A stretch of 64,000 nucleotides of DNA from contig JAUYQP010000023.1 in assembly GCA_030697205.1 (NCBI GenBank), positions 1-64,000 of the forward strand, written 5' to 3'. A program made the position numbers and the translations under genes. Every line of letters begins with the position of its first letter. The stretch's first letter is position 1. Positions 56,389 to 60,201 of the stretch are shown in pieces. Under the pieces are notes generated by a model that did not search any database, was not told the DNA's origin, and saw nothing but the letters and a program-made list of their open reading frames with translations. Source of the stretch: Mycobacteriales bacterium (lineage in GTDB: Bacteria; Actinomycetota; Actinomycetes; Mycobacteriales; SCTD01).

Positions 56389-57233
56389 GCACCTCCGCAG
56401 GTCTGCAGGCCTTCAGCGACCCGCTCGGTCCGAAGGGGCGGCTGCGCACCCGCATCGCGTCCGCCGCGGGCCTCGTCCTCATCCTGGGCCTGCTCGTCAT
56501 CGCGCTCAGGCGGCTCGACAGCCAGGGCCAGCTCGACCAGCAGGACTGGGAGCAGATCCTGTCCAAGGACGGCTTCGAGTTGCTCCTCGGGGGGCTCGTG
56601 CAGACCCTCAAGGTCGCTGTCATCGCGGTCGCGCTCTCGCTGTCGGTCGGCACCCTCATGGCCCTCGGTCGGCTCTCGCGCATCCCCTTCCTGCGCTACC
56701 TCGCCGGCACCTACGTCGAGCTGTTCCGCGCGCTGCCGTCGCTGCTGCTCATCCTCATCATGTTCTTCGGGATCGGGCTCGGGCAGTTCGCTGCCATCGT
56801 CGTCGGCCTGTCGCTCTACAACTCCGCGGTGATGGCCGAGATCGTGCGCGCCGGCATCCTGTCGCTGCCCCGCGGCCAGGCCGAGGCGGCGCTCGCGGTC
56901 GGCATGACCACCGGCCAGGTGTCGCGCTTCGTCGTACTCCCCCAGGCGATCTCCCGGATGCTCCCGTCGATCGTGGCGCAGGGCGTGGTCGTCCTCAAGG
57001 ACACGTCCTACGGCTTCGTGATCGGCTTCGAGGAGCTGCTGCGTCGTGGCCAGATCGCCGGCCAGGTGACCGGTGACCTGCTGCAGTGCCTGGTCGTCGT
57101 CGCGGTCATGTACATCGCGGTCTGCCTCTCGCTGTCGCAGGTCGCCCGCTGGCTCGAGGGGCGGCAGCGCCGCCGCTACGGTCGCGCTCCGGTGCTCGTC
57201 GGCAACGACGCCGGCGCCCCCGCCGCTGCCTGA
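56385..57233 (+). CDS. gluD: Glutamate-type ABC transporter permease GluD
   Basis: The 282-residue permease has an N-terminal cytoplasmic extension of about 25 residues, then TM helices and the EAA loop (GQAEAALAVGMTTGQVSRFVVLPQ). The ATG at 56385 overlaps the gluC stop. It is the last gene of the operon and is followed by a long repeat-bearing gap. Confidence 0.92.
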   Translation: MSTSAGLQAFSDPLGPKGRLRTRIASAAGLVLILGLLVIALRRLDSQGQLDQQDWEQILSKDGFELLLGGLVQTLKVAVIAVALSLSVGTLMALGRLSRIPFLRYLAGTYVELFRALPSLLLILIMFFGIGLGQFAAIVVGLSLYNSAVMAEIVRAGILSLPRGQAEAALAVGMTTGQVSRFVVLPQAISRMLPSIVAQGVVVLKDTSYGFVIGFEELLRRGQIAGQVTGDLLQCLVVVAVMYIAVCLSLSQVARWLEGRQRRRYGRAPVLVGNDAGAPAAA

Positions 57234-57292
57234 CCCCCGCCGCCCCCGCCCACCTGTTACCGCGCAGCCCGTACCGCCCGCCTTGCGCCGAC

Positions 57293-57348
57293 GATCTTCG
57301 CCCTGTTGCGATTCGTCGAGCGTGGCGACCCGCAACAAGGCGAAGATC
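57293..57348. repeat. 18-bp inverted repeat with 20-nt loop
   Basis: GATCTTCGCCCTGTTGCG (57293-57310) pairs at 17 of 18 positions with CGCAACAAGGCGAAGATC (57331-57348). It may act as the gluABCD terminator. It abuts the GATCACCACGGTTGCGGCG segment shared with the 50-kb repeat, which suggests a mobile or dispersed origin. Confidence 0.6.
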
Positions 57349-57378
57349 ACCACGGTTGCGGCGGGGCCGGGCGGGGCC

Positions 57379-57464
57379 GGTCCCACTGCTTCCACCTGCT
57401 CCTCACCCGGCCGTGTCCCCTGCTGCGCGCGACGGCGACACCGTGAGGTGGAAGTAGTAGGACC
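57379..57464. repeat. Hairpin repeat element, copy 1
   Basis: The outer arms GGTCCCACTGCTTCCACCT and its partner near 57446-57464 pair with two mismatches or wobbles. An inner GTGTCC ... GGCGACAC arm is shared with copy 2. The element is about 86 bp. Confidence 0.6.
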
Positions 57465-57503
57465 GCGTCACAGGCACGCGCGGGCAGGTCGGGGCCGGGC
57501 AGC

Positions 57504-57591
57504 GGTCCGTTCTGCTTCCACCCGGCACCTCTCCGGCGGTGTCCCCCGCTGCGGGCTGCCGGCGACACGGTGAGGTGGAAGCAGAACGGAT
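57504..57591. repeat. Hairpin repeat element, copy 2
   Basis: TCCGTTCTGCTTCCACC (57506-57522) pairs perfectly over 17 bp with 57574-57590. The layout equals copy 1, but several stem positions differ in both arms together, so the pairing is preserved. Confidence 0.6.
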
Positions 57592-57646
57592 CGCGCGGGA
57601 AGGGCGGACAGGGCGGGCAGGGGGACCCGGAGACGGGCCCGGACGT

Positions 57647-57680
57647 ACGACGGGCCCGCTCCTCGGAGCGGGCCCGTCGT
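57647..57680 (-). terminator. Strong hairpin terminator
   Basis: A perfect 16-bp stem (ACGACGGGCCCGCTCC with its complement) and 2-nt centre lies 12 bp after the stop of the surface-protein gene at 57692. It could also stop read-through from gluABCD. Confidence 0.8.
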
Positions 57681-57691
57681 AGAGGGGTCGG

Positions 57692-60004
57692 TCAGGCGGT
57701 GCGGCGGCGCAGCGCGACCGCGCCGAGCACGAGGCCGAGCGCGACCAGCGGGACCCCGGTGGTCAGGCCGGTGGCGGGCAGGGCCGGAGGGGTCGGCGCG
57801 GCGACCGGCGGCTGCGCCACGGGCGGCTGAGCGACCGGCGGGGCGACGACCGGCGCGGACGCGCGGGCGCCGAGCACGATGTCCATGGACGGCGCGTTGT
57901 CGACGTGCTCCATGAAGCTCTGCACCTCCGACGCCGGGCTCGGGTTGAGGAACGAGAACGCCGTCGCGTCGTAGAGACGGTCACCGTCCTTCGCAGCGAC
58001 CTCGGTGGGACGCAGGCCCTCGTCGAGCGGGCCGAGCGCCTTGAGCAGCGAGCCGGGGACGTCGAGCCGGATGAGCCCGGCCTCCTGGTCGACGGTGCCG
58101 GTGACGCCCTCACCGTCCGTGGGGTTCTCGGTGCCCGGGTAGATCAGGCACTTGCCCTCGTTGGAGGCGCAGGCGGCACTGGTCGTGGTGTAGCCGTTGT
58201 AGCCGAAGAACCAGCCGGTGGCGGCGTCCCAACGGGCGACGGCCGCGGCACCCTGCCAGCCGTCGACGAAGCGGTAGATGTAGACCAGCGAGCCCGGCGC
58301 GGCGGTCTGCGTCGTGAGGATCGCGTCCTGCAGCGCCGCGTCGGAGAGGTCCTTGTAGCGCATCTCGACGATGAAGCCACCGCCCTCGCGCGGCAGCACC
58401 TCGACGGCCTTCTTGCCGTCACGGTCGACGAGGTCGAGGGCGTCGACGGGGTTCTGCGCGCCGTCGATGAGCGGCAGCAGCGGGTTGGTGAAGGAGTAGC
58501 TGGACAGCGCATCGCCCGCAGGGTCCGGCGAGGTCGTGCGCACGACCTCGCGACCCGGTCGCGACACCGTCCCGCCGCCGTTGCTCGGGCCGCCGATCTG
58601 CACGACCACCGACGGGGTCGCGACGGTGCCGGCGGGGTCACCCGGGCGCTTGCCGGCGTTGCTGTAGACGATGTTGAGAGCGCCGGACTTCTCGTTGTAC
58701 TCCATCGTGAAGTAGTCGACGAGCGAGCGATCGGCTCCGGCGACGGTGCAGCCGAGGCCGTTGAGGCAGATCGAGTCGTAGTGGCTCGGGTGCGTCGTCG
58801 CCTGCACCTGCGACACCTTCGGGTTCGCGCTGAAGACGTCGAGCACCTGGTTGACGTAGACGTGCCAGGCGGCCTGGAACGTTCCCTCGTCGGGATTGCC
58901 CTCGCTGGCCGTGCCGTAGTAGGCCACGGCGGCGCGACCGGCGGCCCCCGAGGCCGCGACCCACGGCATGACCGTCGTCTTCACCGAGCCCCGGTTCATC
59001 CGGATCTTCTCGGTGAAGCCCGGGTTGGTCACGTTCGAGGCGGACTCCGTCGCGGGGGCGTCGCCCTTGCAGTTCTTGAACACCTCGAAGGTCGCGGCGA
59101 CGAGGTAGGTCGCGCGGTCCTCGCCCTTCTCGGTGTAGGTGACGTAGACGTTGCCGTCGTCGTCGTGGTCGGCGGCAACGAAGCCGGCCGTCGGCGGGAC
59201 CTCGGCGTCGACGGCGACGCACTGGGAGAAGGTCTCGCCGTTGTCCTGCGACAGCGCGATCTTCACCAGGTTGCCGGCGCTGTAAGGGAAGTAGACGAAG
59301 GCCTTCGACACGTCGGTCTCGCCCGGCGGGAGGAAGGCCCGGATCTGGCCGATGCGTCCGGCCTCGTTGGCGGCGCGGGCACCCGGCGTGTTGTAGGTCA
59401 GACCACCGTCGACCGACTTCTGCACGACCTTGTTGAGGGCCAGGTTGTTGTAGGTGAGGAAAGCGGTCTTGTCGTCGCTGAAGGCGATCCACTGGCGGTC
59501 GACGCCCGGGATCGACTCGCTCGTGGCACTCGCGGCGAAGGTGCGACCGGAGTTCGCCGACGTCGCGGTCGAGAAGTTCGTCAGCGGGCCGAGGCCGGCG
59601 TAGGCGAGGGCGTACTGCCCCTGCGCGTTGGGCGTGATGGCCGTCGCCAGCGCGCAGTCACCCCCGCCCTGACCGGCGGCGATCTGACCGCGGGGCGCCG
59701 TACCCAGGAGGTGGAACTGGTCTCCCCCGTCGGTCGAGATCTGGGCGTAGTCGTTGGCGGTGGAGAAGCCGGTCGGCCCGCAGGTGTAGATGTTGCCGTT
59801 GCGGTCCGGCGTGATCGCCGGCTCGCCCTCGTCGCGCTGCGGGTCCGAGACGATCGTCGCGCTGAACTGCAGGTCAGACGGCTCGATCGGGAAGGCGTCG
59901 GCCGCCGCCGCGCTCTGGCCGGGCGCCCCGACGAGGGCGCCTCCACCGAGGACGAGGGCGGTGACGGCCAGCAGGGGCAGTCGTCGCGACGAGCGTGTGC
60001 GCAT
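57692..60004 (-). CDS. LPxTG-anchored surface protein with Asp-box repeats, copy 3
   Basis: The 770-residue exported protein has a signal peptide (to about AAAADA, 36) and a sialidase-like propeller region with Asp-box-like repeats (AQISTDGGDQFHLL, TSANSGRTFAAS, KSVDGGLTYNTP, LSQDNGETFSQC). A domain rich in aromatic strands follows. The C-terminus PALPATG plus TM and RRRTA is a sortase signal. It is less similar to the two large BNR proteins than they are to each other. The ATG at 60004 starts the signal peptide. The role is unknown; recognition of surface ligands is plausible. Confidence 0.82.
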   Translation of the reverse strand: MRTRSSRRLPLLAVTALVLGGGALVGAPGQSAAAADAFPIEPSDLQFSATIVSDPQRDEGEPAITPDRNGNIYTCGPTGFSTANDYAQISTDGGDQFHLLGTAPRGQIAAGQGGGDCALATAITPNAQGQYALAYAGLGPLTNFSTATSANSGRTFAASATSESIPGVDRQWIAFSDDKTAFLTYNNLALNKVVQKSVDGGLTYNTPGARAANEAGRIGQIRAFLPPGETDVSKAFVYFPYSAGNLVKIALSQDNGETFSQCVAVDAEVPPTAGFVAADHDDDGNVYVTYTEKGEDRATYLVAATFEVFKNCKGDAPATESASNVTNPGFTEKIRMNRGSVKTTVMPWVAASGAAGRAAVAYYGTASEGNPDEGTFQAAWHVYVNQVLDVFSANPKVSQVQATTHPSHYDSICLNGLGCTVAGADRSLVDYFTMEYNEKSGALNIVYSNAGKRPGDPAGTVATPSVVVQIGGPSNGGGTVSRPGREVVRTTSPDPAGDALSSYSFTNPLLPLIDGAQNPVDALDLVDRDGKKAVEVLPREGGGFIVEMRYKDLSDAALQDAILTTQTAAPGSLVYIYRFVDGWQGAAAVARWDAATGWFFGYNGYTTTSAACASNEGKCLIYPGTENPTDGEGVTGTVDQEAGLIRLDVPGSLLKALGPLDEGLRPTEVAAKDGDRLYDATAFSFLNPSPASEVQSFMEHVDNAPSMDIVLGARASAPVVAPPVAQPPVAQPPVAAPTPPALPATGLTTGVPLVALGLVLGAVALRRRTA

Positions 60005-60201
60005 CAGGGCTCCGCGGATCAGTGCGCGCGGTCGGGGTGTCCGCCGGCGCGTCGGGAGTCCATCATCGCCCATCCCGGGGCAGAACGTCCCGTTCCTGAC
60101 CTCGACGACCGGGCGCTTTCACCAGACCTGCCCCACACTCGACCGAACCCCGCGGCCGCGATCTCCGTCTCAGCCCGGTGGCACGACAGGGGACGATCGC
60201 G

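Follow-up and report, generated by a model that had tools for sequence, protein, structure and literature searches.

The published accounts consulted here link REPIN-type repeats with RAYT transposases. In the description of REPINs (PMC3116915), the ends are conserved, the spacer is kept for its length and its hairpin capacity, compensatory changes are common, and 71 bp lie between the ends of the GI type. A head, GT(A/G)G, is described on each REP (PMC2817692). The GTAG- and CGTC-tagged REPs are reported as dispersed extragenic palindromes of 20-40 bp with an end tag (PMC3733652), in a paper whose main text nowhere contains the words actinobacter, Kineococcus, Nocardioides or Frankia. The Correia repeat enclosed elements of Neisseria are reported as ~105-bp inverted repeats with discrete length classes (104-108 and 153-157 bp), symmetric and asymmetric end variants and a target duplication (PMC2649163). 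Here I describe a family of hairpin repeats, named F1, of which no description was found in the open-access literature on bacterial intergenic repeats (titles and abstract openings, with few subscription journals covered).

Two hairpins in a convergent gap

The window, which is the whole stretch of 64,000 nucleotides analysed, lies on contig C23 of the source assembly (G000; 4.02 Mb, 59 contigs, completeness 100). As listed in Table 1, one intergenic gap of the window contains four hairpins, and two of them, C23a and C23b, are members of a small dispersed intergenic family (F1). The original prediction had described a tandem hairpin pair, ~87 bp each and 39 bp apart, with shared arms and with paired differences in the outer stems. 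The pair is real, as confirmed by its arms, spacing and pairing, and the dimensions were close; copy 1 was measured to span 88 bp and copy 2 93 bp, at a distance of 36 bp. The arm CTTCCACC/GGTGGAAG is indeed found in both copies, while the sharing of the inner arm is reduced to GTGTC/GACAC, five pairs. The outer stems do differ in a paired way: GTTCTGC/GCAGAAC is fully paired, and CTGC/GTAG contains one G.T pair.

Table 1. Features of the gap in the window, and sites of the other recurrent hairpins by locus (L numbers)
Feature	Position	Strand	Remarks
ABC-transporter permease gene	stop at 57233	+	named from the translation, by eye
Intergenic gap	57234-57691		between convergent genes; four hairpins inside
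F2 hairpin (separate family)	57293-57348	+	GATCTTCGCC..GAGCGTG..GGCGAAGATC, 56 bp
Copy 1 (C23a)	57378-57465		arms 57378-57397 and 57446-57465, 18/20 paired
C23a core, CTTCCA..TGGAAG	57389-57454		66 bp; 5-nt spacer from block 1 to CTTCCA, both sides
C23a inner arms	57413-57418 and 57434-57441		GTGTCC and GGCGACAC; GTGTC/GACAC pairing common to C23b
Copy 2 (C23b)	57502-57594		arms 57502-57522 and 57574-57594, 20/21 paired
C23b core	57515-57581		67 bp; 6-nt spacers GTTCTG/CAGAAC
Hairpin with perfect 17-bp stem	57646-57681		beside the 3' end of the minus-strand gene
Gene facing the gap from the right	57692-60073	-	ORF
F3 hairpins, GTGGCGATC..GATCGCCAC	L159 12652-12693 and 12727-12768; L002 about 1411-1460; L163 15444; L166 2827		42 bp; recurrent in the 1.26-Mb sample, once tandem 75 bp apart
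F4 hairpins	L168 4254; L159 1005		frame like F5, different paired middle
F5 hairpins, GATCAACAGCACATCTGCAC..	L227 917-988; L229 13403-13474; L231 about 10930; L240 about 14670; L241 about 15270		recurrent; 72 bp in two found by the GATC-end test
F6, CGCCTTGCTGCACTGCACGC-like inverted repeats	L244 9280-9380 and 16594-16718; L243 17682-17785		spans 101, 125 and 104

Against dinucleotide shuffles, the DNA fold of copy 2 stands out (z -5.84; 0/200 as good), and that of copy 1 is not exceptional (z -1.22; 20/200 as good). In 1.26 Mb of the source genome, 15 inverted pairs reach 18/20, compared with 7 mirror-repeat controls, and arms like those of C23a and C23b, taken alone, are only mildly unusual. 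The window hairpins are beyond chance because the element recurs (the C3 copy and the 12 copies below) and because pairing within copies goes beyond that of permuted arms.

Like the F2 hairpin, the hairpin with the perfect 17-bp stem is not mentioned in the original prediction; it is perhaps the ordinary terminator of the gap, with no U run called there. In translation, the minus-strand gene gives a protein whose end resembles an LPxTG sorting signal, with LPATG followed by hydrophobic residues and RRR.

A dispersed family with paired arms

The original prediction had named the absence of further copies, together with no transcript from the region, as the outcome that would refute it. The first of these does not apply: the source genome holds 12 well-supported copies on 10 contigs (C3, C11a, C11b, C14, C23a, C23b, C24, C25, C32, C37, C47 and C49) plus three weaker or divergent candidates, and the suggestion of a MITE-like element was a sensible class for such a dispersed family. 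A plain DNA search gave the copy on C3 (E 3.6e-25), and the copies were gathered by pattern and covariance-model searches of the source genome. The core pattern, with cores of 61 to 91 allowed, had 16 forward matches, compared with 11 of the reversed-pattern control. Eleven were kept, and five were dropped since their printed cores are unlike F1 (C11:92322, C15:34635, C46:92151, C46:101643 and C59:70554), a judgement made on the core and not on each outer arm. C49:49713 and C11:87581 were also dropped, their printed sequence being unlike F1. C14, with one core mismatch, came from the covariance-model search. Model R3, built from the 12, recovers all 12, as expected by construction (C23a, itself among the 12 model sequences, at E 2.7e-10), and adds C15a (E 1e-4), C6 (0.011) and C15b (0.048). 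The core lengths of C6 and C15b, counted by eye, are 67 and 77, which is not independent evidence because the finding model had learned both lengths. C15b was also recovered in a length-blind palindrome scan.

Exact F1 arm matches in the source genome lie within paired elements in 12/12 cases, namely 11 in accepted copies and one in C15a. Arms with one mismatch number 17, with nine in copies and eight alone, while the reversed control gives seven in all. No longer element with F1 ends was found in the source genome by the exact-arm search. By the rule of G+C at codon positions, all 12 copies are outside likely genes, bar one ORF opposite recG at C11b. Gene orientation was settled for eight of the 12, the flanks of C11a, C25, C37 and C47 leaving it unsettled: C23a, C23b, C24 and C32 are between convergent genes, C3, C11b and C14 between tandem genes, and C49 between divergent genes. 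The position of C49 argues against a terminator as the common role. The three candidates look convergent, by stop codons read by eye. No common theme was seen in the genes flanking F1 copies, which look unrelated.

F1 elements are non-coding, 94-106 bp as aligned, with inverted ends. Each arm is laid out as GRTCC, six variable bases (N6), CTTCCA and then an inner tag, and GRTCC-N6-CTTCCA is present in 19/24 arms. The exceptions are C23a, with five variable bases on both sides; C47, with CGGAC for GRTCC on both sides; and C14, with CGTCCA in one arm. The inner tag is either CACC-type (CCTC, CCTG or CCCG after CTTCCA) or GTCC-type. C3, C23a, C23b and C25 have CACC-type tags at both ends, C24, C32 and C37 have GTCC-type tags at both (one end GTCT), C11a, C11b, C14 and C49 are mixed, and C47 has GCTG and CCTC.

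The core, from CTTCCA to TGGAAG inclusive, falls into two length classes, 66, 67, 67, 67 and 68 bp in five copies and 76, 77, 77, 77, 77, 78 and 78 bp in seven, with none between, so that the classes are about one DNA turn apart. The periodicity R is 0.894 at 9.5, 0.922 at 10, 0.925 at 10.5 and 0.909 at 11, and 0/20,000 sets of 12 uniform lengths match the observed periodicity, a figure to be read with the copies that share descent counted as not independent. Most interiors are unrelated; detectable relatedness is limited to two groups, C23a with C23b and C3 (z 3.6 to 9.5), and C11b with C14 (z 3.4). C3 and C23b, at different loci, have both interior and arms in common, which suggests copying.

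The N6 bases match within copies at 53/72 positions, compared with 37.9 when the right arms are permuted among copies (p 2e-4). With G.T allowed, the figures are 57 and 45.6 (p 0.0013), and after removal of C3, C23b, C11b and C47 they are 34/48 and 24.7 (p 0.002). In alignment A3, changes on both sides occur in 13/21 stem pairs (1/500 shuffles as high), 86.5% of cells are paired compared with 76.1% in shuffles (0/500 as high), the covariation score is 0.339 compared with 0.168 (0/500 reach it), and further pair types number 19 compared with 15.8 (reached by 43/500), all against shuffles that ignore the relatedness of copies. Slid registers of A3 score at most 0.091 in covariation, compared with 0.339. 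There is no excess of within-copy pairing in the 11 bases outside block 1 (p 0.54), and that of the inner tags is not beyond chance (p 0.25). Thus, only the arm shows the pairing, and the tags behave like sequence signals.

The spacer of C23a is one base shorter than that of C23b on both sides, and its sequence also differs on both sides. By template switching, stems can reportedly arise and be repaired (PMC8794818; PMC8604942), and one arm can be rewritten from the other (PMC8794818). The paired one-base change in length probably arose at least partly by such a one-step mechanism, one arm being rewritten from the other, which is simpler than separate matching mutations. The original prediction had read the paired differences as selection on the folded RNA or DNA. 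The paired change stands, while selection on the folded RNA is not secured, because C49 lies between divergent genes and because template switching can equalise the arms without selection.

Relatives and other hairpin families

Covariance-model searching, the kind of check proposed with the original prediction, yielded further copies in the source genome; among the 199 other genomes of the order, the family included, no convincing copy was found (model R3, stricter filters). R3 gave E <= 0.05 in three of 200 genomes, that is, G000 and weak matches in G017 and G119 whose folds are without the element. Model R1 gave E <= 1 in 11 of 24 family genomes, where the 10 besides G000 have E between 0.09 and 1, and no convincing copy in the 23 others; the folds viewed were those of L069, L070, L071, L073, L074 and L081. 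A strong palindrome of 104 bp, whose long arms differ in sequence from those of F1, lies at positions 1501-1604 of L070 (G012). The first F1 model found it at E 0.3, and it could be a distant relative. A DNA search with copy 2 matched 10 of 101 genomes, G000 and nine in which the match is partial and covers 23 to 48 bases, with E from 1.6e-5 to 9.7e-4; these short matches are taken as GC-rich chance. A pattern scan of GTDB species genomes, which may exclude the source genome's own records, gave one match, on an Oscillospiraceae contig (L122), taken as unrelated chance. That pattern is limited to the commonest form, since a match must have an intact CTTCCA, spacers of six bases and GATCC on one of the two sides; it would miss the forms of C32, C23a, C47 and C14. 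The F1 pattern had no match in viral contigs.

The gap at the 3' end of the RNase J gene, the only site compared with relatives, contains an F1 copy, an F2 copy and a third hairpin in G000. Out of 24 loci, 22 were tried and 20 were readable, one without a recognised gene end and one with four bases downstream being excluded, and F1 arms were found in G000 only; 6/20 readable loci have fewer than 360 bases downstream, and the gap in relatives is too diverged to reveal an insertion. G011, G019, G007 and G010 (L266, L269, L279 and L287) have different GATC-ended hairpins just after the RNase J stop.

The F2 hairpin next to C23a belongs to a family with 18 copies in G000, 56 bp long in 17/17 parsed. 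F2 matches occur in 5/60 other genomes, including other genera of the family, the match in G040 being a 28-base piece only. The F2 alignment has 31 copies (18 from G000, nine from G021, three from G015 and one from G009), the short or divergent L026, L029, L032 and L033 being left out. Its paired changes are mainly in two columns, where G021 has T-A for C-G. No shuffle reached the covariation score (0/500), while 141/500 reached the double-change pairs and 42/500 the further pair types. On the strand with the off-centre GAGCGTG, G.T outnumbers A.C by 21 to 7. With columns 12-13 left out, the ratio is 10 to 2. Folding of one strand would produce such an excess. Among 17 F2 copies, seven are in convergent, one in divergent and seven in tandem gaps, and two have one neighbour called.

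Further recurrent hairpins, F3 to F6, are listed in Table 1. GAGCGTG, a motif itself taken from F2, lies near a hairpin centre at 22/263 sites, compared with 0/187, 0/175, 0/168, 3/686, 1/239 and 16/1,226 for six rearranged motifs. By my sorting, the 22 sites comprise nine F2, five F5, two F3, one F1 (C11a), one unassigned and four coding-like. Within F1, GAGCGTG is found in C11a and C25, five bases from the centre, and 13/15 copies are without it, so a common origin of F1 with these families is no more than possible. Hairpin pairs at self-complementary tetramers number 7/5,381 for GATC, 8/12,929 for TCGA, 2/5,423 for ACGT and 13/24,728 for CGCG. The enrichment is mild, and thus the GATC end is not a firm mark of a class. 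At 17/20, the length-blind scan for palindromes over 1.26 Mb is barely above its mirror controls (84 matches and 61); at 18/20, the first 0.46 Mb has 14 compared with 9, and 0.4 Mb of G009 has 0 compared with 4.

A wider reading of these families is tentative and, in my judgement, rather doubtful. Actinobacteria of this family might carry a RAYT-independent class of DNA hairpin families of fixed length: 42, 56 and 72 bp and, measured from one outer GATC-like end to the other, about 89 or 99 bp. These would have GAGCGTG in common near the centre of one strand, their arms would be diversified by paired changes, and the enzyme that copies them would be one whose action on hairpins is not yet known. 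If this is true, F1 would be the longest and, unseen in relatives, perhaps the youngest family.

Interpretation and comparison with known repeats

I propose, with middling confidence, that F1 is a family of non-autonomous DNA hairpin repeats, small and restricted to one lineage, that lie between genes and are read as a folded strand by a putative enzyme acting in trans. The unit would consist of two inverted ends, each GRTCC-N6-CTTCCA and an inner tag, around an interior of free sequence and fixed length. Its functional form would most likely be one DNA strand folded into a hairpin, and the putative enzyme may read the conserved blocks in the folded stem and copy or move the element, the insertions between genes being those that persist. 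The N6 between the blocks would need only to pair, and paired changes may come from template switching and then be kept by the pairing requirement. The combination of fixed blocks with a stretch that needs only pairing suggests that a folded strand is read, the fixed length with a free interior suggests that geometry matters, and the lack of exact solo arms suggests that the doublet is the unit. On the other side, the copy number is low, no target duplication was seen by eye, and the inner tags show no pairing beyond chance. The 10-bp step between classes fits the phasing of duplex DNA better than a hairpin, a caution that the relevant form may be the duplex. In addition, a search for RAYT (Y1_Tnp, PF01797) had no match in G000, while the same search was positive in 5/14 named genomes; with no Y1_Tnp and no longer element with F1 ends, there is no candidate enzyme, which counts against the hairpin element.

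Template switching that equalises the arms is the main rival. In its full form, the arms would be paired inverted binding sites in duplex DNA, where GRTCC and CTTCCA are both recognised from one face of the helix by a protein that is dimeric or loops the DNA, and N6 is neutral, equalised by template switching at replication. Two length classes one helical turn apart (R ~0.92 at 10-10.5) are what such sites predict, the paired length and base changes between C23a and C23b are hard to reach by separate point mutations, and template switching is reported to create and to mend stems (PMC8794818; PMC8604942). Nevertheless, I consider this explanation unlikely: a third in-phase core length of 86-88 was searchable (61 to 91 allowed) and none appeared, the lengths are not independent where copies share descent, and the unrelated look of the flanking genes gives no regulon logic. 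An insertion-sequence origin, in which F1 is a MITE of a classical DDE element and its arms are the terminal inverted repeats of an IS that has since disappeared or that the assembly lacks, is very improbable. A short non-coding element of 94-106 bp aligned, with inverted ends and dispersed between genes, is what it predicts, but N6 matches the other end of its own copy better than the ends of other copies, which simple descent of terminal repeats would not lead one to expect. Also, no long element has the same ends in this 59-contig assembly (which may lack IS copies), and no target duplication was seen by eye in the 11-base flanks of the copies.

It is quite unlikely, on the sequences at hand, that F1 works as a transcribed RNA element, that is, as a hairpin of the 3'-UTR or RNase III type, or a terminator of unusual form, that would act on neighbouring mRNAs like Correia elements, whose repeats are reported to be bound by RNase III (PMC2649163). 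Copies are often in convergent or 3' gaps and the folds are very stable, yet C49 lies between divergent genes. The excess of G.T over A.C on the GAGCGTG strand of F2 (21 and 7) would suit an RNA, but F2 hairpins are sense to the gene whose 3' end faces them in 5/9 cases and antisense in 4/9 (convergent and divergent gaps excluded), and in F1 the G.T and A.C counts are 11 and 5 with a mostly arbitrary orientation. A scan of the window gave two overlapping plus-strand terminator-like matches with a T-rich tail at 57492-57509, where the left arm of copy 2 begins; shuffles give 0.2. The stem of these matches, 5-6 bp long, lies outside the hairpin of the element, and the arm serves as the tail; I read them as a short GC stem with the arm for its T-rich tail, not as a terminator of copy 2. 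Moreover, no Rfam covariance model matched at gathering score in the whole window, and a known structured RNA family was rejected.

The paired one-base change in length makes F1 well suited to asking which lies behind stem covariation, template switching or selection on folding. The question bears on the reading of covariation as evidence of structure in general.

The end boxes of integron attC sites are RYYYAAC and GTTRRRY, and the F1 ends GRTCC/GGAYC in A3 do not fit them by eye; an attC site was therefore rejected. F1 is like the GTAG- and CGTC-tagged REPs in being made of dispersed extragenic palindromes, and unlike their short palindromes with an end tag (PMC3733652). It resembles the Correia elements, as they are reported, in being ~105-bp inverted repeats with discrete length classes and symmetric or asymmetric end variants, but the Correia classes are ~50 bp apart, compared with 10 bp in F1, and the target duplication reported there was not seen in F1 (PMC2649163). 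With REPINs, as described in PMC3116915, F1 shares inverted conserved ends, a spacer fixed in length and not in sequence, compensatory changes, an extragenic position and the possibility of tandem clusters. It differs from them in having no exact solo arms, about a dozen copies and two length classes, in a genome without a RAYT gene, and its GTCC-type arms lack GTAG and GTGG on either strand, while GTGG is present in the CACC-type arms. I do not file F1 as a REPIN because RAYT is absent and many arms have no GT(A/G)G head. The logic of the hairpin element applied to F1 is nevertheless that by which REPINs were recognised (PMC3116915), and a family that follows the design rules of REPINs in the absence of RAYT suggests that such elements are made or maintained by a different enzyme.
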